A DNA stretch of 64,000 nt from contig JABLUY010000098.1 of assembly GCA_013306675.1 (NCBI GenBank), forward strand, positions 1 to 64,000, read 5' to 3'. The stretch comes from Thraustochytrium sp. TN22 (lineage: Eukaryota; Sar; Bigyra; Thraustochytrida; Thraustochytriidae). The notes under the pieces were generated by a model. It saw only the letters and a program-made list of their open reading frames with translations. It was not told the origin of the DNA and did no database searches. Both the position numbers and the translations under genes were made by a program. The stretch's first letter is position 1. Each line of letters starts with the position of its first letter. Shown here in pieces: positions 26,665 to 37,365 of this stretch.

Positions 26665-27633
26665 TCATCGACGATACGCGCTCGCCGTAGCGCGCAGCAG
26701 GTCCGCGGCCACCTCCTTCGTTCGAGCTTCGCTCGCACGCGCCTCTCGCACGTGAGCTTGCAGTTCGGACGCCTGGCTTGCGCTTCGCCGCAGTCTCAAA
26801 CGCTCCACGCAGACCTCCGAGTCCGAGGAAGCCCCCTCGTTAAGTTGCGGAGTACCAGGGACCAAGCCGCGGGGTCCAGAGCACGAGCACGCCTGCGCCT
26901 GCGCCAGAAGCAAGCCCTCCACGTGCTGGCGCTGATCCACGGCCGTCCGTGCCCGACGGCGCGCGGTCGCGCCTGCGCGCTCCGCAACGGCCAGGCGGGT
27001 CTGCAGGTCTGCGCACGATTCTTGAGCAGACTGCAGCGCTGCCTCGAGTCCCTTCGCACGGGCCCGCTCAGCGTTCACCATCGATTCGTCCTGTGCACGC
27101 GCCGGCTTGCCCCGCAGCTGCTCTTGCAGAAGCTCCGCGTTCTCCGTGCGCAGCTCCTGCAGGCTCTCGCGCGCCAGCTCCAGCTCCAAGTTGGCCTTTT
27201 GCAGGCGCTCGCGCTCCGTCTGCAACGCGCGCTCATGCTGCTCCGCCACAGTCGCCAATTTGTCCAGGTTTTGCAACAGCCTGTTCTTGCTGTCCTCCGA
27301 GGCGGCCAGACGCGTTGCGGCGTCCGCAAGGTCGCACTTGAGCTGTGCAGTCGTCGCACGCAGCTCCTCCAGCTCCGTCGCTGGCGGCGCCGCCGTGGCC
27401 CGCTCCAGCGACGTGCACCGCGCGCGCCAGCTATCGCGCTCCTTGCGAAGCTGTGTCATCGTCGCGCGTACCTCTTCGAGCTCCTCTGCGTGTCGAGCGC
27501 CCGTTGTGCGCACCGCCTCGAGCTCCTCGGCCGCAGCATTTGCCTTGGCACGCCATGCATCTCGATCCTTGCGCTGCTGCGAGACTGTCGCACGGAGCTC
27601 CTCCAGCTCTTCAGACGAGATGGACGGCTGCTG

Positions 27634-27681
<48 letters not shown>

Positions 27682-28409
27682 ACGTTGCTCGAGCTCCTCA
27701 AGCCGGGCTCGTAGCGTATCGCGTTCCTCACGGAATTGTGCTTCGCGCCGCTTCGCCTGTCGAGTGATGCGCTGCTCACGCTGTGCCCACTCCGCCTTTT
27801 TGCGCTGAGGTACTCGCGCTCGCGCTCCAGCTCGCGCCGCAGCCTCCGGTGTGACGCCGAGGCCGACCCGGAGCGCGAATCCGCTGACTCCGACGGCTGG
27901 CGCTGCTGATTCGCAGACGGCAAGACCTCGTCATCCTCCTCCACACCCTGCTGAGGCTGCAAATGCATCGGCTGCAAATGCATCGGCTGCCGCTGGCGTT
28001 GCGCCTGCTCCTCCTTGCGCCGCATGTCACGCTCGTTGCGCAGCTCCTCGTACATTTGGCGGTAATGCGCGTCAAGAGGGCTCTGCCAGGTTGACTCGTG
28101 CGTCTCCTCATTCAAAAAGTACGTCTTCTTGGTGGCCTGGTCCACAATCTCCACCCACGGATATGCCAGCTCTGCGACGAGCGCCTCCTCGGCGATCCAC
28201 AAGAACTCCCGGTCAAGCGCAGGGTCCATGCCCAGCATCTGCGCGTGGTCGATGACGGCCTGCTCCATCACGCGCGGCGCCTCCCCCTCCGGGATGTGCA
28301 GCTTAAGCTTGCGCGGGTCCGCAAACCTGTCGGCGCTTCGCTCCAGCGACCTGCGCCGAAGTGCCTCCAGCGAGTAGCTCGGAATGCCGTCGTCCCCGTC
28401 CGAAGCCAT
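26665..28409 (-). CDS. CEP164: CEP164-like WW-domain coiled-coil protein, frame interrupted
   Basis: Start ATG at 28409 ('MASDGDDGIPSYSLEALRRR'). Residues ~50-115 match the CEP164 N-terminus: 'VIDHAQMLGMDPALDREFLW', then a WW domain with 'YPWVEIVD' and 'KTYFLNEETHESTWQSPLD' followed by 'HYRQMYEELRNERD'. The rest is long coiled coil with a poly-Gln run (CAG, about 27635-27682 on this strand) and a helical C-terminus ending at 26665. CEP164 is a distal-appendage protein needed to dock centrioles at the membrane for cilium formation. The coding signal changes frame at about 27805-27812: N-terminal codons reach 'LEREREYL', and the coiled coil resumes in the next frame as 'RKKAEWAQREQRITRQAKRR'. 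One missing base (CTCAG for CTCCAG), or less likely a small intron, would explain it. Sequencing error or pseudogenisation cannot be separated here. Confidence 0.8.
27610..27690. repeat. CTG/CAG repeat in the CEP164-like coding region
   Basis: About 16 CTG units on the plus strand, read as CAG (poly-Gln) in the coding frame of the minus-strand gene. One alternative frame reads it as poly-Ser, which creates a misleading longer ORF. Confidence 0.9.
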
Positions 28410-29103
28410 CCTTGCGGCGCACTGCAGCGCGCCCTGCCCGCGTCGCCGTCGGCGCTGCGCTGCAGCACACCCACCTCGAGCGTCTCGAGTCTGCCTCGTT
28501 CTCCTCGCGCTCGTCTCCAACACGGCCTGGAAAGGACCCGGACTCCAAGACTCTGCACGCGCACGCACCGTGACTGCCACGCAGCAACGACGGTTGACCC
28601 ATGAGTTGATACTTGCCAAGTAGACCCAAGCCTTCGTCGTGCCTGCAGCGAAAGATGATGGAAGCCACGCAAGCGCGCTGCGTCTCGCCAGGCTGCGACG
28701 CCAGGCAGGCGCGCCGTCCACCTCGCTACGGCGCGGCCTGCCACCACTTGATTGCCAGCGCACGCTCGTAGCTATGACTTCGAGCCAAGGCGAACCACCT
28801 TCGCAGGGGTGTGCGGCGGGCAAGTCATGATCACCGCGACTGGCACTTGAATAGGCACTTGTATGCTCACGCACCCCGGTCCGCGCGTACCCCGCGCGCC
28901 TAGGGAAAAATTATCGCCGAGACTCGAAGCCAAGGCGGGCGAGGCGAGGCGGCAGAGCGCGAGAGAGCGCAAGAGATCAGCTTGGCGCGCGCGCGCGGCG
29001 GCGGCGGCGGCGGCGGTAGCGAGGGGAGGGGACGAGGCGCGAGAGAGTGCGTGAGCACGGGCCTGCGCCGGGACGCAGCGACGCAAGGGCGGAGCACGAC
29101 GGG
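28410..29103. other. Divergent intergenic region
   Basis: About 690 bp separating the CEP164-like gene (-) from the first Cys/His-repeat gene (+). It should include both promoters. This upstream sequence is not shared with the other two Cys/His-repeat paralogues, which have a common promoter block instead. No other gene seen. Confidence 0.5.
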
Positions 29104-30642
29104 ATGGCGCGGCGAGGACTGCTAGCGTGGCTGCGCGAAGGGCGCAAGGACTCGCCTCGCGGGGTGAGTAGCGGCGGCGGCGACGGCAAGAGCGGCGGCA
29201 GTAGCGCTGCACGCAGTGCCTCATCGAGCCACGATGGCACGCAGAAGGCCTTCTTGAACACCAAGATGGACGAGGAGGCGGAAGAAGAGGTTGTTGACCT
29301 TGTCAGCGACACCGAGGACGCCAGCCTCCATGGGATCGTGCAGCAGAGCGGCACCATGTGCCGCCATGAGACCAAGCGCGCCCGTGCAGACCACAGCGAA
29401 GCCCTCAAGGACGCTGTCGAGCCAGCAAGCCGCGAGTTCCCAGCCAGCAAGCGTGCTCGAGTTTCCTTCGACACAGCAGCAAGTGGGAGTGCCCCGGTCG
29501 AGGTGGAGCTGAAGTTAGAAGAGACGGCGTACTCGAGCCAGTTCGTAGACGCGTCCGAGCTAGACCTGTATGCGAGCAACTTTGTCAAGGTCGAGGAGCT
29601 TTCGGCTTTGTACGATGCCGAAACCGAGCCGAGGGATTTGGCAAGAAGAAACCCGGGCGCCTCACGTGGCGCGACGAGAAGCGCAAGGCCGCGTTGGCAC
29701 TGTATGCAGGTGGGCTGCTTCAAATGGGCTGTGAGTGGTGGAAGCCGTCGACTTTGCGTCGCGCATGGTGGCGGGCGACGCTGTCAGCATGCAGACTGCG
29801 ACAAGGGTGCCCTGGCTGGTGGTCTTCCCATGTGCGTCGCGCACGGAGGCGGGAGGCGCTGTGAGCGTCCAGGCTGCGACAAGAGTGCCCTGGGTGGTGG
29901 TCTTCCCTTCTGCATCGTGCACGGAGGTGGGCGACGCTGTGAGCGTCCAGGCTGCGACAGTGGTGCCCGGGGTGGTGGTCTTCCCTTCTGCGCTTCGCAC
30001 GGCGGCGGGCGGCGCTGTCAGCATGCAGACTGCGACAAGAGTGCCGGGACTGGCAGTCTTCCATTCTGCATCGCGCACGGAGGCGGGCGACGCTGTGAGC
30101 ATCCAGCCTGCGATCTGAGTGCCAGGGCTGGTGATCTTCCCTTCTGCATCGCGCACGGTGGCGGGCGACGCTGTGAGCGTCCAGGCTGCGACAAGAGTGC
30201 CAAGACTGGTGGTCTTCCCATGTGCGTCGCGCACGGAGGCGGGCGGCGCTGTCAGCATCCAGACTGCGACAAGAGTGCCGGGACTGGCGGTCGACCCTTC
30301 TGCATCGCGCACGGAGGCGGGTGGCGCTGTGAGCGTCCAGGTTGCGTCAAGAAGGCCCAGGGTGGTGGTGCTCCCTTCTGCATCGCGCACGGAGGCGGGC
30401 GACGCTGTGAGCGTCCAGGTTGCGACAATGGTGCCAAGGCTGGTGGTCTCCCCTTCTGCTTTGCGCACGGAGGCGGGCGGTGCTGTCAGCATCCAGACTG
30501 CGGCAAGGCCGCGCGTGGTGGCGGCCTTCCCTTGTGTTTTGCTCACGGTGGCGGCAGGCGTTGTGGGCGCTCAGACTGCGCTCGTGTAGCTGCTACGCGA
30601 AGCCTCCACTGCGCTTTGCACAGCAAGGGTCCGAGGCCATGA
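29104..30642 (+). CDS. Cys/His tandem-repeat protein, paralogue 1 (12 units)
   Basis: 512 residues from the ATG at 29104 (GTG upstream rejected). N-terminus 'MARRGLLAWLREGRKDSPRG', then Gly/Ser-rich linker, an acidic segment 'EEEVVDLVSDTEDAS' that fits a SUMO-interacting motif (hydrophobic core VDLV flanked by acids), a basic KRAR patch that may be an NLS, and a perfectly conserved block 'LEETAYSSQFVDASELDLYA'. From ~residue 200 follow twelve 26-residue units of the form C-x4-C-x11-C-x2-H-GGGRR, for example 'CERPGCDKSALGGGLPFC', with degenerate first and last units. The regular C-C-C-H set suggests one zinc ion per unit. Such repeats are annotated in stramenopiles as 'WRKY19-like', without a true WRKY domain. 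Role unknown; a nuclear, SUMO-linked function is inference. Confidence 0.9.
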   Translation: MARRGLLAWLREGRKDSPRGVSSGGGDGKSGGSSAARSASSSHDGTQKAFLNTKMDEEAEEEVVDLVSDTEDASLHGIVQQSGTMCRHETKRARADHSEALKDAVEPASREFPASKRARVSFDTAASGSAPVEVELKLEETAYSSQFVDASELDLYASNFVKVEELSALYDAETEPRDLARRNPGASRGATRSARPRWHCMQVGCFKWAVSGGSRRLCVAHGGGRRCQHADCDKGALAGGLPMCVAHGGGRRCERPGCDKSALGGGLPFCIVHGGGRRCERPGCDSGARGGGLPFCASHGGGRRCQHADCDKSAGTGSLPFCIAHGGGRRCEHPACDLSARAGDLPFCIAHGGGRRCERPGCDKSAKTGGLPMCVAHGGGRRCQHPDCDKSAGTGGRPFCIAHGGGWRCERPGCVKKAQGGGAPFCIAHGGGRRCERPGCDNGAKAGGLPFCFAHGGGRCCQHPDCGKAARGGGLPLCFAHGGGRRCGRSDCARVAATRSLHCALHSKGPRP

Positions 30643-31286
30643 AGCACAACATCGACTTGATCGTTTTTCAAATAGATCCATTGCGTGTTGACTGCTTGAC
30701 CCCCTCGTGAGAAGGCTTGAAAGAAACGAAGAGGTTAGGATCGTTGCGGCATCCATTCTTTCTGACGAGAACTCATCAAGTGGCAACGACTAAAATGTTG
30801 GCACTCTGGACTTGCTCTCATCTTCGTAGCCGGGTCAGCCATCCGTGGTGACGGTGTGGCGCCGGCGGTCAGGAGGTCCGAGTGAGAACTGACGCAGCTT
30901 GACAGGCGCCGCCAACTACTACCACAAGCTCCGATGATGTGGCGGCGCTGCGGCGATGTCCAAGCGTACACGAAGGCTTCCGTGTCTAGGCTAGCTAGAT
31001 TCACTGTCAGTCCAAGCCCGCGGGATTGCGACCTGGCCTTGGAAGCGGCGGCGGCGACCCGCGGGAAAAATCCATCCGGCCCTTGGCTGCCGCGACCTAA
31101 CCGCCGCAGGCGGCCTGCGGTGCTCCGCGCCAGTGCCGCAGCGCACAACGCAAGGCGACGCGACGCGACACACGGTGCGGCGGGTCGAGCGAGGCGTGGG
31201 CGCGAGGCGCGAGGCGCGAGGCGAGGAGGCACGCAGCGCAGCGCCCTGTGGTAGCGGCACACGCAGGCCGGTGCGGTGGCGCCGAG
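30643..31286. other. Intergenic block duplicated before paralogues 2 and 3
   Basis: This ~640-bp block (first copy) and 32619-33268 (second copy) are nearly identical, sharing for example 'CTCGTGAGAAGGCTTGAAA', 'AGCCGGGTCAGCCATCCGTG' and 'GGGAAAAATCCATCCGG'. It therefore carries the 3' flank of one paralogue and the promoter of the next. Differences are small indels and substitutions. Confidence 0.85.
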
Positions 31287-32618
31287 ATGGCGCCACGGGG
31301 GCTGCTGGCGTGGCTGCGCTTTGGCCGCGAGGGCCCGCCTCGACGGGAGAGCGGCGGCGACAGCGGCGACAGCGGCGACAGTGGCGTGGCGCGCACCGCG
31401 TCGCCCGACCATGGCAGCTCGCAGGAGGCCATCTTGGACACCAGCATCGAGCACGAGGAGGTGGTCGACCTTGTCAGCGACACCGAGGACGCGAGCCCTG
31501 CTGAGCCTGTGCAGCAGAACGGCCGCCATGACCTCAAGCGCGCCCGTGCAGAGCCATCAAGGCGGGAGATCCCCGCCGGTAAGCGCGCTCGAGTCGCCTT
31601 GGACACCGCAGCAAGCGGCAGCGCCCCGGTCGAGGTGGAGCTGAAGCTAGAAGAGACGGCGTACTCGAGCCAGTTCGTAGACGCGTCCGAGCTAGACCTG
31701 TATGCGAGCAACTTTGTCAAGGTCGAGGAGCTTTCGGCTTTGTACGATGCCGAAACCGAGTCCAGGGATTTGGCAAGAAGAACCCCGGGCACCTCACGTG
31801 GCGCGACGAGAAGCGCAAGGCCGCGTCGGCACTGTATGCAGGTGGGCTGCTTCAAATGGGCTGTGAGTGGTGGAAGCCGTCGACTTTGCATCGCGCATGG
31901 TGGCGGGCGACGCTGTCAGCATGCAGGCTGCGACAAGAGTGCCCTGGCTGGTGGTCTTCCCTTCTGCATCGCGCACGGTGGCGGGCGGCGCTGTGGGCGT
32001 CCAGGCTGCGACAAGAGTGCCAATGCTGGTGGTCTCCCCTTGTGCGTCGCGCACGGAGGCGGGCGACGCTGTGAGCGTCCAGGCTGCGATCTGGGTGCCA
32101 AGGCTGGTGGTCTTCCCTTCTGCATCGCGCATGGAGGCGGGCGGCGCTGTCAGCACCCAGACTGCGACAAGGGTGCCAACGCTGGCGGTCGGCCCTTCTG
32201 CATCGCGCACGGTGGCGGGCGGCGCTGTCAGCATCCAGACTGCGACAAGAGTGCCGGGACTGGCGGTCGACCCTTCTGCATCGCGCACGGAGGCGGGCGG
32301 CGCTGTGAGCGTCCAGGTTGCGTCAAGAAGGCCCAGGGTGGTGGTCTTCCCTTCTGCTTTGCGCACGGCGGCGGGCGGCGCTGTCAGCATGCAGACTGCG
32401 ACAAGAGTGCCGGGAGTGGCTGTCGGCCCTTCTGCATCGCGCACGGAGGCGGGCGGCGCTGTGAGCGTCCAGGCTGCGACAAGGCCGCGCGTGGTGGCGG
32501 CCTTCCCTTGTGCCTTGCTCACGGTGGCGGCAAACGCTGTGCGCGCTCGAACTGCTCTCGCAACGCTGCTGCTCGAAGCCTTCACTGCGCTTTGCACAGC
32601 AAGGGTCAGAGGCCATGA
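31287..32618 (+). CDS. Cys/His tandem-repeat protein, paralogue 2 (10 units)
   Basis: 443 residues from the ATG at 31287 ('MAPRGLLAWLRFGREGPPRR'). Same architecture as paralogue 1: acidic SUMO-interaction-like 'EEVVDLVSDTEDAS', basic patch 'GKRARVALDTAAS', the invariant block from 'VEVELKLEETAYSSQFVD' to 'FVKVEELSALYDAETE', then ten Cys/His units of 26 residues, starting 'CMQVGCFKWAVSGGSRRLC' and ending with a degenerate 'CSRNAAARSLHCALHSKG'. It has two fewer units than paralogue 1, so the array has expanded or shrunk by whole 78-bp steps. The invariant N-terminal block shows that this half is under stronger constraint than unit number. A GDSGDS triplet repeat follows the first 25 residues. 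Function unknown. Confidence 0.9.
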   Translation: MAPRGLLAWLRFGREGPPRRESGGDSGDSGDSGVARTASPDHGSSQEAILDTSIEHEEVVDLVSDTEDASPAEPVQQNGRHDLKRARAEPSRREIPAGKRARVALDTAASGSAPVEVELKLEETAYSSQFVDASELDLYASNFVKVEELSALYDAETESRDLARRTPGTSRGATRSARPRRHCMQVGCFKWAVSGGSRRLCIAHGGGRRCQHAGCDKSALAGGLPFCIAHGGGRRCGRPGCDKSANAGGLPLCVAHGGGRRCERPGCDLGAKAGGLPFCIAHGGGRRCQHPDCDKGANAGGRPFCIAHGGGRRCQHPDCDKSAGTGGRPFCIAHGGGRRCERPGCVKKAQGGGLPFCFAHGGGRRCQHADCDKSAGSGCRPFCIAHGGGRRCERPGCDKAARGGGLPLCLAHGGGKRCARSNCSRNAAARSLHCALHSKGQRP

Positions 32619-33268
32619 AGCACAACATCCACTTGATCGTCTTTCAATTGCATGTTTTCTGGTTCACCCCCTCGTGAGAAGGCTTGAAACGAAGAGGTTA
32701 GGATCAGCAACCGTTGCGGCATCCGTTCTTTCTGACGAGAACTCATCAAGTCGATATTTGCAGCGACTAAAACGTTGGCACTCTGGACTTGCTGTCATCT
32801 TCGTAGCCGGGTCAGCCATCCGTGGTGACGGTGTGGCGCCGGCCATCAAGAGGCCCGCGTGAGAACTGACGCAGCTTGACAGGCGCCGCCGACTGCTACC
32901 ACAAGCTCCGATGATGGCCTACCTTGTGGCGGCGCTGCGGCGCTGTCTGAGCGTACACGAAGGCTTCCGTGTCTAGAGGCTAGCTAGATTCACTGTCAGT
33001 CCCAGCCCGCGGGATTGCGACCTGGCCTTGGAAGCGGCGGCGGCTCCCCGCGGGAAAAATCCATCCGGACCTTGGCTGCCGCGACCTAACCGCCGCAGGC
33101 GGCCTGCGGTGCTCCGCGCCAGTGCCGCAGCGCACAACGCAAGGCGACGCGACGCGACACACGGTGCGGCGGGTCGAGCGAGGCGTGGGCGCGAGGCGCG
33201 AGGCGAGGAGGCACGCAGCGCAGCGCCCTGTGGTAGCAGCGCACGCAGGCCGGTGCGGTGGCGCCGAG
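32619..33268. other. Second copy of the duplicated intergenic block
   Basis: Near-identical to 30643-31286 (see that entry), with scattered substitutions and short indels. Contains no separate gene. Confidence 0.85.
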
Positions 33269-34525
33269 ATGGCGCCACGGGGGCTGCTGGCGTGGCTGCG
33301 CTTTGGCCGCAAGGGCCCGCCTCGACGGGAGGGCGGCGGCGACAGCGGCGACAGCGGCGACAGTGGCGTGGCGCGCACCGCGTCGCCCGACCATGGCAGC
33401 TCGCAGGAGGCCATCTTGGACACCAGGATCGAGCACGAGGAGGTGGTCGACCTTGTCAGCGACACCGAGGACGCGAGCCCTGCTGAGCCCGTGCAGCAGA
33501 ACGGCCGCCATGACCTCAAGCGCGCCCGTGCAGAGCCATCAAGGCGGGAGATCCCCGCCGGTAAGCGCGCTCGAGTCGCCTTGGACACAGCAGCAAGCGG
33601 CAGCGCCCCGGTCGAGGTGGAGCTGAAGCTAGAAGAGACGGCGTACTCGAGCCAGTTCGTAGACGCGTCCGAGCTAGACCTGTATGCGAGCAACTTTGTC
33701 AAGGTCGAGGAGCTTTCGGCTTTGTACGACGCCGAAACCGAGTCGAGGGGCTTGGCAAGAAGAACCCCGGGCACCTCACGTGGCGCGACGAGAAGCGCAA
33801 GGCCGCGTTGGCACTGTATGCAGGTGGACTGCTTCAAATGGGCTGTGAGTGGTGGAGGCCGTCGACTTTGCGTCGCGCACGGTGGCGGGCGGCGCTGTCA
33901 GCATCCAGACTGCGACAAGAGTGCCAAGGCTGGTGGTCTTCCCTTGTGCGTCGCGCACGGAGGCGGGAGGCGCTGTGAGCGTCCAGGCTGCGACAAGAGT
34001 GCCAATGCTGGTGGTCTTCCCTTCTGCTTCGCGCACGGTGGCGGGCGACGCTGTGAGCGTCCAGGTTGCGACAAGGAGGCCCCAAAGGGTGGTGGTCTTC
34101 CCTTCTGCATCGCGCACGGAGGCGGGCGGCGCTGTCAGCACCCAGACTGCGACAAGAGTGCCAAGACTGGCGGTCGACCCTTCTGCATCGCGCACGGTGG
34201 CGGGAGGCGCTGTGAGCGTACAGGTTGCGACAAGAGTGTCAAGACTGGCGGTCTTCCCTTCTGCATCGCGCACGGAGGCGGGCGGCGCTGTGAGCGTCCA
34301 GGCTGCGATATGGGTGCCAAGGCTGGTGGTCTTCCCTTCTGCATCGCGCATGGAGGCGGGCGGCGCTGTCCGCATCCAGGCTGCAGCAAGGCCATGTGTG
34401 GTGGCGGCCTTCCCATGTGCTTCGCTCACGGTGGCGGCAGGCGTTGTGCGCGCTCAGACTGCGCTAGTGTAGCTGCTACGCGAAGCCTCCACTGCGCTTT
34501 GCACAGCGAGAATCCGATGAGCTGA
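33269..34525 (+). CDS. Cys/His tandem-repeat protein, paralogue 3 (9 units)
   Basis: 418 residues from the ATG at 33269. N-terminal ~200 residues are almost identical to paralogue 2, including the GDSGDS repeat, the acidic 'EEVVDLVSDTED' motif and the invariant 'LEETAYSSQFVDASELDLYA' block. Nine Cys/His units follow; one carries an extra residue ('CDKEAPKGGGLPFC'), the only break in the strict 26-residue period, and the last full unit has 'CSKAMCGGGLPMC' with an extra Cys. It ends in the same degenerate half unit 'RSLHCALHSENP'. Its 3' flank differs from the other paralogues, marking the right edge of the segmental duplication. Paralogues 2 and 3 look like the youngest pair. Confidence 0.9.
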   Translation: MAPRGLLAWLRFGRKGPPRREGGGDSGDSGDSGVARTASPDHGSSQEAILDTRIEHEEVVDLVSDTEDASPAEPVQQNGRHDLKRARAEPSRREIPAGKRARVALDTAASGSAPVEVELKLEETAYSSQFVDASELDLYASNFVKVEELSALYDAETESRGLARRTPGTSRGATRSARPRWHCMQVDCFKWAVSGGGRRLCVAHGGGRRCQHPDCDKSAKAGGLPLCVAHGGGRRCERPGCDKSANAGGLPFCFAHGGGRRCERPGCDKEAPKGGGLPFCIAHGGGRRCQHPDCDKSAKTGGRPFCIAHGGGRRCERTGCDKSVKTGGLPFCIAHGGGRRCERPGCDMGAKAGGLPFCIAHGGGRRCPHPGCSKAMCGGGLPMCFAHGGGRRCARSDCASVAATRSLHCALHSENPMS

Positions 34526-34853
34526 TTTGAACGATTTTTGGGTGGGACCACATTGAGTTGTCCAAGGCTCCCAGCGTAAGATTATCATGTGGGACGAAAA
34601 ACAGGAGCCCGGTACAGGATTCTTTCCCTTCTGATCGGCCCTTGTCGAGGCGCAGACTGCCGTGGACGTTGGATTGTAGTTTCAAGGGGTGCCACACACA
34701 AACATCAAGGTTTTGTCGACTTATTCTCACCTACGGAGTAGAGCCAAGCCAATCACCCGAGATTCAACAGCGTGGTCATCATCAGTCTCCCTGGCGTGAC
34801 CTGTAATTAGGGGCCAGCAGGAAGCCCTCAAACCACCAAGTGGCGCTCTCAAC
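34526..34853. other. Convergent spacer, nothing seen
   Basis: 328 bp between paralogue 3 and the 3' end of the PPC decarboxylase gene. Composition is clearly less GC-rich than the coding parts. No gene or repeat recognised. Confidence 0.5.
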
Positions 34854-35522
34854 TTAGTGGCCGCCACCAAGGCTTCCCTGGTCTAAGGCGTCACGCACGG
34901 CTGTGAGAATTTCGTCGACCGAGGCAAGTGCTCCCGAGCCTAAGGTAGGTGTTCGGGCCATTGCGGTTAGCCTGTGTTGGCAAAATACCCAAAGGGAGGT
35001 TATAGCAAACCTACCGACGTCGCCGCATGCGAGCTTTTTGCTCATGGGCGCAACAACAGTGGCACCCAACCCCGTCATCTTGCCGAGCTGCTCCGCAGTG
35101 AGTGGGTGATCCCACATGAAGGTGTTCATCGCGGGCGAGAGGAGCAAGGGCTTGCCAAAGTCCCAGGCGCGTACGACGCTGGTAAGTAGATTGTCGCAGA
35201 TGCCGTGAGAGATCTTGGCGAGAGAGTTGGCGGAGAGCGGCGCGAGGAGGAAGACATCGGCCCACTTGCGCAGCTGCATCGCGATTGCGCGTTGAGTGAG
35301 GAGGGGGCAAGGTTCTGGCGCCGCAGGCGCTGTAACTCACCTCAATGTGAATCACCGGGTCCTTGCCAACGAGAGTGTAGTTGCCCCACTCGTCGGCGTC
35401 TACGACGGACCTGATGGTCTGATTGTCGATGGCCTCTCGCAGACCGGCGAATGTCTCGCCGTTGTACTTGCGTGCGGCCTCATCGAAGAGCCGCGCGTGC
35501 TCTGTCCACACGACGCAAACCT

Positions 35523-35553
<31 letters not shown>

Positions 35554-35791
35554 CGGCGGGACGCGGCGGGACGCGGCGCATTCTGCGTCAGCGCGGCGCG
35601 CTTCATCCTCGCTCTGCGACCTCCCCCCAACCTACCTCGGCGTGCAGCTCTCGCTGCAGGCGCAGCGCGATCTCCGGCACCTTGACCACGGCCACCGACC
35701 CGCTCGCGCCCACGAGCACGCGCGGCCTGCGCTGCGCGGCCGCCGCGGCCTCCCCGCGCCCGTCGTCATCCTGCGCCGCCCTCGCCTCCAT
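34854..35791 (-). CDS. PPCDC: Phosphopantothenoylcysteine decarboxylase (HAL3/PPCDC), four exons
   Basis: Exons on the minus strand: 35636-35791, 35341-35520, 35015-35273 and 34854-34939, joined by introns of 115, 67 and 75 nt with GTAGGT, GTGAGT and GTAGGT donors; total 226 residues in one frame. The FMN-dependent flavoprotein fold is complete: 'RVLVGASGSVAVVKVPEIAL', 'VCVVWTEHARLF', the active-site His in 'DPVIHIE|LRKWADVFLLAP', the substrate signature 'SPAMNTFMWDHPLT' (PxMNxxMW) and the clamp Cys in 'KKLACGDVG'. The enzyme makes 4'-phosphopantetheine from phosphopantothenoylcysteine in coenzyme A synthesis. ATG 35791 gives a short Ala/Arg/Glu-rich leader; longer upstream frame is low-complexity. 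It is head to head with the Bap31-like gene, 247 bp apart. All key residues are present. Confidence 0.95.
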
Positions 35792-36038
35792 CCCGCCCGC
35801 AGGCCCTCCGCCTCGCGCCGGACGCCGCGCCGCCGAGCGAGCGGGCGAGCGCGCCGGGCGGTGCCGCCGTGAGGCTCTTGGCCGACTGCCACGTGGGCGC
35901 GGCGGCCCGGCTGCTCGGGCTCGGCTCGGCTCGGAGGGGACTTGGCGGTCGGAGGAGGGAGGGCCGCCATGCTGGCCGGCCATGCCGGGCCGGGCGGCAG
36001 TCGCGCAACTCGGCAGCTCGCGCGCGCAGCCCGGCTGC
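35792..36038. promoter_or_regulatory. Short divergent promoter of PPCDC and Bap31-like genes
   Basis: Only 247 bp separate the two start codons on opposite strands, so both 5' leaders and core promoters must fit here. It is very GC-rich; I see no TATA box. Confidence 0.55.
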
Positions 36039-36798
36039 ATGCAGGACGCGGACCTCGTCACGATGATCTCGCTGGTCAAGGTACGTGCGCCGCCCGCGCG
36101 GCCCCGCGCGCGCCGGCGCCGCGCCGCGAGGCGGCGGGCATGGGCATGGGAGGGGCGGGACGAGGCTCAGGGCCAAGATAGCGACGGAAGGTGCCGCGGT
36201 GCCGCGAGGCGCGGCGAGGGCGCGGCGGGGGCGCGGCGCGGGAGGGACGAGGACTGACGAAGGGGCGCGCACGCGCGATGCAGTTTTTCGTGGGCACCAT
36301 GGCGGTCCCGGCCGTGCTGCTGCTGCTGCTGCTGCTGCCGCTGCCGCGGCAGGTGCAGAACGCGCTGGTGACCATCACGGACCGCATCCTCTTCTTCAAG
36401 CCGCACCCGTACGTGAACCTGACGCTCTTTTGGCTTTTCCTGGGCACTTCCATCATTGCCTTCGGGACGGCCGCGTGGACGATGCAGCGGGCGCGCGAGA
36501 CCTACGACAACGTCAAGGGCATTAGCGGCAACGCGCTCGAGCCGCGCGTCAAGCTCCTGGCTGGTACGTTTCCGCGGCGCGCTCGCGAGAGGGAGGGAGG
36601 GGGAGGAGGAAGCACATCATGACTAATGTTGCACGTGTACGCGCACGCCGGTGCTTCGCAGCGGAGCGCAACCTGTGGATCACGGGCAGTGCGTGCGCGC
36701 TGTGGATCCTTCTGCACCGCTTCCGCAGCCTGGAGAAGCAGTGCAACCTGTACTACGCGCAGCTCACCGACAAGACCAAGGAGCCCAAGAGCGAGTAG
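36039..36798 (+). CDS. BCAP31: Bap31/Bap29-like ER membrane protein, three exons
   Basis: Exons 36039-36080, 36284-36563 and 36662-36798 give 152 residues in one frame. Donors are GTACGT in both introns; branch-like CTGAC (about 36253) and CTAAT (about 36622) lie 30-40 nt before the acceptors. The protein starts 'MQDADLVTMISLVK|FFVGTM' and has three hydrophobic helices: about 8-30, 55-75 ('LTLFWLFLGTSIIAFGTAAW') and 112-128 ('NLWITGSACALWILLHRF'). The order and the 'RVKLLAAERNLWITG' segment match the Bap31 N-terminal domain. Bap31 proteins act in ER quality control and cargo export. The family's cytosolic coiled coil is nearly absent; the chain stops soon after TM3 ('KTKEPKSE'), so this is a short member. 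Copies of this last-exon end recur downstream. Confidence 0.85.
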
Positions 36799-37092
36799 GC
36801 TGGAACCGGCCGGCGCGTCACCTCGTGGCCAAGGTAGTCGTGGTCCCACATGTACTACGACCCAAAGAAGAGCTCTGTTTCGATGATGCTCCCAAAGAAA
36901 CACTACGCGCAGCTCACCAACAGGATCAAGGAGCCCAAGAGCGAGTCGTAGCTCACAAACAGGACCAGCGAGCCCAAGAGCGAGTCGTAGCTCACCAACA
37001 GGACCAAGGAGCCCAAGAGCGAGTAGGCTGGAGGCGACTGGCGCGTCACCTCGTGGCCAAGGTAGTCGTGGTCCCACATGAACTACGACCCA
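36799..37092 (+). repeat. Repeated 3' end and flank of the Bap31-like gene
   Basis: The last codons of the Bap31-like gene ('CAGCTCACCGACAAGACCAA' through GAGCCCAAGAGCGAGTAG) recur at about 36902-36950, 36951-36990 and 36991-37026, each ending in a TAG. The ~65-bp stretch after the stop ('GCGTCACCTCGTGGCCAAGG' and on) recurs at 37027-37092. The layout points to nested tandem duplication of the gene's end. Confidence 0.9.
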
Positions 37093-37365
37093 AGGAAAAG
37101 CTCTGTTTCGATGATGCTCACAAAGGAAATCTCTCTTTCGATGATGCTCACAAAGAAAAGCTCTGTTTCGATGATGCTCACAAAGAAAAGCTCTGTTTCG
37201 ATGATGCTCCCAAAGAAAAGCTCGGTTTCGATGATGCTCGCAAAGAAAAGCTCTGTTTCGATGATGCTCCCAAAGAAAAGCTCTGCTGCGATGATGCTCC
37301 CAAAGAAAAGCTCGGTTTCGATGATGCTCCCAAAGAAAAGCTCGGTTTCGATGATGCTCATGGTA
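37090..37365. repeat. 30-bp minisatellite, about nine copies
   Basis: Units of AAAGAAAAGCTCTGTTTCGA plus TGATGCTCMC, differing by point changes (for example CTCGG for CTCTG). One frame reads KKSSVSMMLP repeatedly and the opposite strand also stays open, but this follows from the 30-bp period and is not evidence of a gene. The seed of the unit is visible once at 36862-36896. Confidence 0.92.

Follow-up and report, generated by a model that had tools for sequence, protein, structure and literature searches.

What kind of protein is formed when a fixed N-terminus carrying a motif like those that bind SUMO is joined to a tandem array of small Cys/His units whose length changes from copy to copy? 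Three genes of Thraustochytrium sp. TN22 raise this question in the window analysed here, the whole stretch of 64,000 nucleotides under study. The open reading frame coordinates place them head to tail on the + strand, where the first-pass annotation had located them: copy 1 at 29104..30642 (512 aa, 12 units), copy 2 at 31287..32618 (443 aa, 10 units) and copy 3 at 33269..34525 (418 aa, 9 units). The unit count bears out these numbers of C-x4-C...C-x2-H units, and array length indeed differs among the copies by whole-unit steps. The description of the unit as 26 residues of the form C-x4-C-x11-C-x2-H holds strictly for 10 of 12, 8 of 10 and 6 of 9 units in copies 1, 2 and 3, but not for the rest, the spacing deviating in the first and last unit of every copy and in unit 4 of copy 3.

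A single gene repeated by misassembly could give a similar picture, and arrays of this kind do break the assembly elsewhere, with contig ends at C66, C2 and C426 and runs of N in three other array loci (L040, L048 and L051). The window sequence, however, is free of N, all three reading frames are open, and N-terminus, unit content and intergenic sequence set the copies apart. Judged from the assembly sequence, their differences are too large for a single collapsed locus; the artefact is largely refuted, and we grant it next to no probability.

The three copies do not share one age. The N-terminal halves had been called near-identical, which is true of copies 2 and 3 (97% identity) but not of copy 1 (75-77% to them). 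With a dS of 0.038 between copies 2 and 3 vs 0.285-0.286 between copy 1 and either of them, only the second of two duplications is young, and the idea of a young triplication has to be narrowed to that event. The intergenic sequence before copy 2 (30643..31286, unstranded) matches that before copy 3 (32619..33268, unstranded) at 89%, and the duplicated block comprises intergenic sequence and gene, which corrects the first description of it. It does not extend to the outer flanks: a self-comparison of 28000-37000 gave no match of at least 250 bases upstream of 29097 or beyond 34517, and the 5′ flank of copy 1 and the 3′ flank of copy 3 therefore lie outside it.

The alignment suggested earlier yielded dS for all pairs and also a probable conversion tract linking copies 1 and 2 (29515..29781, +), from the end of the fixed N-terminal block through unit 1. 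Over amino acids 138-199 these copies show synonymous differences at 2 of 44 sites vs about 29 of 88 upstream (Fisher p 1.5e-4), and the DNA of unit 1 is 99% identical. Array units move between copies. Higher-order periods of 3 units are present in the arrays.

The array module itself is a known domain, Pfam Zf_WRKY19 (PF24906), and is not new. The arrays span 29701..30639, 31833..32615 and 33815..34522 (all +) in copies 1, 2 and 3, and the Pfam E-values of the three proteins are 4.3e-73, 1e-65 and 2.1e-53, low enough to exclude chance. The scores of 241.1, 217.5 and 178.2 bits exceed the curated score of 27 bits, by which the window units are members of the domain; 11, 9 and 8 stretches pass. 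At E up to 1, PF24906 was alone in the Pfam scan of the three proteins, with no WRKY, NLR or kinase domain, and no solved structure matched copy 1 at the same threshold. An exact-term literature search with module name and signature peptide found no open-access paper on Zf_WRKY19, and among the matches listed for broader searches none joined this module to a SUMO-interaction motif (SIM), by title or abstract. The C-x4-C...C-x2-H residues of the units are predicted to bind zinc; that these ligands are invariant in 215 units follows from the search pattern itself and does not support the prediction.

The other half of the architecture lies in front of the array. A SIM-like match, VVDLVSDTED, occurs at 29290..29319, 31461..31490 and 33443..33472 (+) in copies 1, 2 and 3, and together with basic KRAR patches it is present in all three, as first reported. 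Over the 14 codons around it, copies 1 and 2 differ at 4 of 9 synonymous and 0 of 33 nonsynonymous sites. The N-terminal block described as unchanged proves to be 53 codons long (29470..29628, 31602..31760 and 33584..33742, +), and none of the three pairs shows a nonsynonymous change there; in copy 1 it contains the psiKxE sites LKLE and VKVE.

This plan is not confined to the window. At least 19 open reading frames of the 37.9-Mb genome, the three window genes included, share an LLAWLR-type start, a SIM-like VVDLVSDxED, basic residues and a final FVKxE block (block 5), the latter found in 16 of the 19 and missing or degenerate in L035, L044 and L053. The hydrophobic core of the SIM is kept in 19/19, and relatives within this one genome thus retain the acidic motif next to the array; the refutation proposed at the outset, in which none would do so, did not come about. 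Scored against the SIM consensus (a hydrophobic core with an acidic/serine flank), 17 of the 19 pass a strict test, with a shuffle mean of 0.11 (maximum 1), and none of 16 other open reading frames does so; this second group holds 13 true controls, L057 and two family-gene pieces lying out of frame (L050 and L061), and five of the 40 reading frames were excluded from both groups, their pre-array part being 60 aa or shorter at contig ends or gaps. L057, a partial relative, has neither the LLAWLR start nor the SIM. Sites of the form psiKxE, the consensus of SUMO substrates, are enriched (38 in 19 proteins vs a shuffle mean of 5.9, maximum 13), at least two in each of 17 proteins and one in the other two. 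Both motifs are short and inherited together by paralogues; the 19 rows count as about 11 independent ones. A serine/acid CK2-like pattern occurs in 12/19, and SUMO is encoded in the same genome.

The family genes lie nearer contig ends than the other array genes (15 vs 13 contigs, Mann-Whitney p 0.02, with distances rounded and entered by hand and the window contig left out). Such a location was set aside as a family trait, since the arrays themselves break contigs.

In six sister pairs, the ratio of nonsynonymous to synonymous change is 0.00 for the start (block 1), 0.16 for the SIM, 0.08 for block 5 and 0.64 for the rest. Constraint on the SIM relative to the rest is modest (p 0.04), and block 5, which carries one psiKxE, is constrained (p 0.001); the segment of the first psiKxE, recognised in 5/6 pairs, has a ratio of 0.33 that is not significantly below the rest (Fisher p 0.36). 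These four segments, without the basic patch, were the ones scored separately. The start, the SIM and the final N-terminal block resist amino-acid change.

Within the array unit, replacements cluster at positions 11, 12 and 19 and, less surely, 9. Positions 9, 11 and 19 exceed the overall pS with a bootstrap interval clear of 1, and position 12 nearly so. Omega is 1.26 at the four positions vs 0.36 elsewhere (Fisher 3.5e-12), the positions having first been chosen on the same data that they describe; the split-half test, fair and weaker, gives a median held-out omega of 1.08 for the top four (5-95% 0.75-1.59), with position 9 among them in 51 of 100 splits. Narrower limits gave 1.83 (42 pairs) and 1.16 (77 pairs). 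The 24 array frames used include out-of-frame pieces and arrays without N-terminus, assigned by unit type, and multi-change codons were skipped (72 at the widest limit). These values suggest adaptive selection on unit positions; given the held-out interval, relaxed constraint could also explain them. The contrast in constraint between N-terminal blocks and unit positions bears out the proposed pairing of a fixed reader motif with a variable zinc-like array.

These contrasts also bear on a plainer account, in which ordinary Zf_WRKY19-type regulators undergo replication slippage and concerted-evolution turnover of their arrays without selection for new targets, and the N-terminus is a normal trans-regulatory stretch that resembles SUMO-related sequences by chance. 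Slippage typically produces 3-unit periods and the gain and loss of units, the held-out omega is near 1, and the N-terminal plan is absent from 13 array proteins of the same genome (8/13 scanned with Pfam). Slippage alone, however, should be expected to spread replacements evenly rather than focus them on four positions, and the three constrained N-terminal blocks speak against it as well; we regard this account as rather unlikely. In those 13 proteins, unlike the window family, the flanks are mostly long and of low complexity and the units more varied: of 64 units caught by a 25-26-residue pattern, 61 are 25 long. A SIM is found in 0/13.

We tentatively prefer, at a little short of an even chance, to read the family as nuclear recognition proteins that are coupled to SUMO and have expanded in this lineage, similar to KRAB-ZFPs in working and not members of them. 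We infer zinc binding, SUMO contact, sumoylation, nuclear location, DNA binding and a silencing output. In this reading the SIM-like motif of the fixed N-terminus would contact SUMO, with CK2-type phosphorylation of the flanking serine probably adjusting the contact in most members, and one or two psiKxE lysines of the N-terminus would be sumoylated in turn. Basic patches would mediate nuclear entry, and the protein could then assemble with chromatin or co-repressor partners that depend on SUMO. Nucleic acid, most likely DNA, would be the ligand of the C-terminal Zf_WRKY19 array, and unit number, unit order and residues 9, 11, 12 and 19 would determine which target is chosen. Gaining or losing units, passing them between copies and duplicating whole genes would each create new specificities.

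SUMO-driven condensates also use a SIM plus several psiKxE sites. Since these features are present here and unit number varies widely among the family genes, a SUMO-dependent nuclear-body protein might be considered, a multivalent protein or RNA scaffold whose avidity follows from unit number and whose variable positions are turned towards partner proteins. Yet in 18/18 genes whose fetched frame includes the array, the array has a net positive charge. This speaks for nucleic acid, and the module takes its name from a transcription factor; we consider the scaffold improbable.

The recognition-protein reading may be carried further, to a counterpart of the KRAB-ZFPs that a heterotrophic stramenopile evolved independently: some 20 SUMO-coupled proteins with a recombining array of non-C2H2 zinc modules and a positional code at 9, 11, 12 and 19, under pressure from a target that changes, selfish DNA or viruses for instance. 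To this extension we assign a low probability. Retroelements look scarce (one RVT_1 and five RVT_2 matches on 4 contigs). This makes a transposon arms race less plausible, and that variant was set aside. Scans of viral contigs with the N-terminal alignment, copy 2 and the unit alignment gave no relative from 189, 8 and 70 pattern stretches, and such scans, which need a short exact peptide pattern, could miss distant kin.

Among known systems, PIAS- and RNF4-type SIM proteins have a VIDL-type core followed by S/D/E and a basic patch. The window proteins resemble them in hydrophobic core, S/D/E flank and basic patch, and differ in having no MIZ or RING domain (Pfam, E up to 1). The EsV-1-7 domain has a C-x4-C...C-x2-H style of spacing with a longer middle spacing than the window unit, and Pfam (E up to 1) does not report it for the window proteins. 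EsV-1-7 proteins of brown algae form an expanded family of hypothesised zinc-finger transcription factors, like the window family an expanded stramenopile family of small modules (PMC12477816, PMC12629598). The KRAB domain and C2H2 fingers are likewise absent from the window proteins (Pfam, E up to 1), where SIM and psiKxE stand in KRAB's place, and KRAB-ZFPs number hundreds whereas the window family has about 20 genes, with few retroelements seen. Tandem-ZFP proteins carry their specificity residues at particular positions of each module, and the variable positions of the window unit, which may set its specificity, would be a likeness. Further likenesses in plan are a fixed N-terminal effector with C-terminal tandem zinc modules, and local clusters formed by segmental duplication with unit turnover (PMC4592553, PMC7289599). 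Fast-changing reader arrays are known chiefly from animal C2H2 proteins (PMC4592553, PMC7289599). If our reading is true, a different zinc module tied to SUMO would mean that such arrays evolved more than once, the Zf_WRKY19 module would gain a testable function, and the four variable positions would predict the residues setting binding specificity, which makes the idea directly testable.

Three head-to-tail genes lie on the plus strand of the window, each an open reading frame ending in an array of C-x4-C...C-x2-H units: copy 1 (29104-30642, 512 aa, 12 units), copy 2 (31287-32618, 443 aa, 10 units) and copy 3 (33269-34525, 418 aa, 9 units), in agreement with the unit counts of the first-pass annotation. 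Because Pfam assigns the unit to PF24906, Zf_WRKY19 (E-values 4.3e-73, 1e-65 and 2.1e-53 for copies 1, 2 and 3), the array module is already known; no other Pfam family was found in these copies at E-values up to 1.

The same annotation had proposed a young tandem triplication, a description that fits copies 2 and 3 and fails for copy 1. Copies 2 and 3 separated recently (N-terminal dS 0.038), and the spacers 30643-31286 and 32619-33268 are 89% alike in DNA. Copy 1 is older than their split, with a dS of about 0.285 and an N-terminal identity of 75-77% to the other two. The repeated block comprises spacer and gene; when 28000-37000 was compared with itself, no match of 250 bases or more extended upstream of 29097 or beyond 34517. 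The copies also trade sequence with each other. Between copies 1 and 2, synonymous differences number about 29 over 88 sites in residues 1-137 but 2 over 44 in residues 138-199 (Fisher p 1.5e-4). In DNA, copies 1 and 2 share 99% identity over unit 1 and copies 2 and 3 share 94%; synonymous differences over the post-block segment and unit 1 stand at 1 of 39 sites for the former pair and 4 of 40 for the latter. Some units match out of order (copy 2 unit 4 with copy 3 unit 7, copy 1 unit 8 with copy 2 unit 6, both 99%), and 3-unit higher-order periods outscore the single unit in all three arrays. Taken with the synonymous drop, these patterns are read as unit shuffling through unequal exchange or conversion.

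In the surrounding genome (37.9 Mb, 453 contigs), at least 150 scored Zf_WRKY19 matches came out of 430 candidates, so that family and array counts are lower bounds. Two kinds of array protein appeared among the 27 array regions fetched and 2 more from an N-terminal search. One, the other class, comprises 13 proteins, which mostly combine diverse units with long flanks of low complexity. The family counts at least 19 ORFs, with an LLAWLR-type motif at the start (block 1, MAPRGLLAWLRxG) and then common blocks: a block resembling a SUMO-interaction motif (SIM; EVVDLxSDxE), a basic KRA patch, a first block with the sumoylation-site consensus psiKxE (psiKxE...FVDAxELD) and a last one, block 5 (FVKMExLAAxDDA), which includes a second psiKxE. 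Block 5 is absent or degenerate in three of the 19 (L035, L044 and L053), L035 being an outlier overall. Its pattern gave 13 matches in the genome, 11 of them in fetched family genes, versus 2 for a reversed control. The LLAWLR motif is not diagnostic by itself, because its pattern gave 52 matches versus 24 for the control. A tree of the N-termini, in which several long branches are uncertain, places copies 1-3 in one supported group (99/99); it also recovers the C201 pair (100/99), the head-to-head C200 pair (100/99) and a group of the C74 pair with C233 (97/93).

Several loci have peculiarities of their own. The C200 genes (L061, C200:26500-30800) have N-termini 95% identical, and the plus-strand array is split over two frames. 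At L050 (C74:68500-72500), a family gene shifts frame within its array after two units, through real decay or assembly error, and is followed by a second copy. The psiKxE-FVDAxEL-FVKMEVLAA segment is doubled in one N-terminus (L048 from 1111, C331). At the end of C66 (L036), a near-identical unit run shows 10 strict 26-mers of 3 distinct DNA sequences, and the true unit number may differ from that seen. An other-class protein on C21 (L037 961-4734, minus strand) has 19 passing stretches and a weak PDZ-like match below cut-off.

The window has 67% G+C. In the genome, two pfaD-type PUFA-synthase genes stand above cut-off, and a search for the light-harvesting family found none, a combination that suits a thraustochytrid. 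For Schizochytrium aggregatum, PMC6050695 gives 38.96 Mb and a G+C content of 63%, and PMC10101102 gives 43-47% for other thraustochytrids. An 18S signature pattern had no match in the assembly. Elsewhere in the window, two short tandem repeats at 36911-37360 (39-base unit, 2.9 copies; 30-base unit, 9 copies) sit within an open frame and encode a repeated FDDAxKEKL-type peptide, and a WW-domain ORF (27456-28874, minus strand) has a poly-serine run that is encoded by a trinucleotide repeat at 27627-27681.

The strict SIM pattern is present in 17 of the 19 family N-termini (shuffled mean 0.11, maximum 1), and the two misses, L040_953 (FVDLVSDDED) and L061_1812 (VVDLVSDTKE), keep the hydrophobic core. 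The same N-termini hold 38 psiKxE sites versus a shuffled mean of 5.9 (maximum 13); 16 other ORFs have no SIM and 5 psiKxE sites (shuffled mean 1.7, maximum 6). Because paralogues have common ancestry, six sister pairs were compared in addition. The nonsynonymous/synonymous ratio was 0.64 in the rest of the N-terminus, versus 0.00 in block 1 (Fisher p 7.6e-5), 0.08 in block 5 (p 0.001), 0.16 in the SIM (p 0.04) and 0.33 in the first psiKxE segment, recognised in five of the six pairs (p 0.36). A serine-acid pattern such as CK2 would recognise lies behind the SIM core in 12 of 19 members. The genome also encodes SUMO, in a C343 frame with VEQQGG that matched solved SUMO chains (best E 3.6e-25).

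Variation within the array was assessed on 24 array frames attributed to the family, which yielded 215 strict 26-residue units; the four Cys/His positions are set by the search pattern and carry no weight. The ratio of within-array nonsynonymous to overall synonymous differences reached 1.89 at position 11 (95% bootstrap 1.58-2.15), 1.69 at position 19 (1.50-1.92) and 1.37 at position 9 (1.06-1.67); position 12 was nearly above the synonymous level (1.24, 0.97-1.58), and no other position of these units exceeded it with confidence. Among closely related unit pairs only, and with fourfold sites supplying the mutation spectrum, omega was 1.26 at these four positions versus 0.36 elsewhere (107 pairs, Fisher 3.5e-12), and 1.16 (77 pairs) and 1.83 (42 pairs) under narrower limits. 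With the top four positions picked on one half of the arrays, omega measured on the remaining half had a median of 1.08 (5-95% 0.75-1.59) and exceeded 1 in 65 of 100 splits; positions 11 and 19 were picked in all 100, position 12 in 97 and position 9 in 51. Because of this outcome, a sharp replacement-hotspot pattern is established and positive selection at the hotspots is no more than suggested. Arrays of the other class mostly have glycine at position 12 (38 of 61 25-residue units) and vary more at other positions.

The N-terminus is inferred to act as a SUMO-dependent adaptor, combining SUMO binding, its own sumoylation and nuclear location. The array would act as a nucleic-acid reader, with specificity set by the four variable residues and unit order. 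Family arrays are net positive in all 18 genes with the array in the fetched frame, the nineteenth being cut before it. SUMO-linked zinc-finger proteins acting as repressors exist, and by analogy the likeliest output would be repression; the family proteins may alternatively activate. Retroelements, one possible driver of the change, look scarce in the genome (1 RVT_1 and 5 RVT_2 matches), although repeats may be under-assembled.

The units of the family belong to the Zf_WRKY19 modules, for which exact-term literature searches found no paper; the SIM-plus-Zf_WRKY19 architecture is not described in the titles and abstracts of the broader matches listed. Three tandem Zf_WRKY19 array genes with 10, 9 and 7 passing stretches lie on a bacterial contig of a MAG labelled Zetaproteobacteria (L067 59-3259, JAPPOJ010000021.1); two of the three have, by eye, a hydrophobic, signal-like N-terminus, and a TPR gene adjoins. 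Of 149 pattern stretches in genome_contigs, this contig gave the one confirmed relative. Brown-algal EsV-1-7 proteins (PMC12477816, PMC12629598) are another expanded small-module family, to which Pfam gives the window proteins no link at E-values up to 1. Membership of the KRAB-ZFPs is ruled out, copies 1-3 having neither KRAB nor C2H2 in Pfam; as that system is outlined in PMC4592553 and PMC7289599, the family proteins are similar to it in plan.
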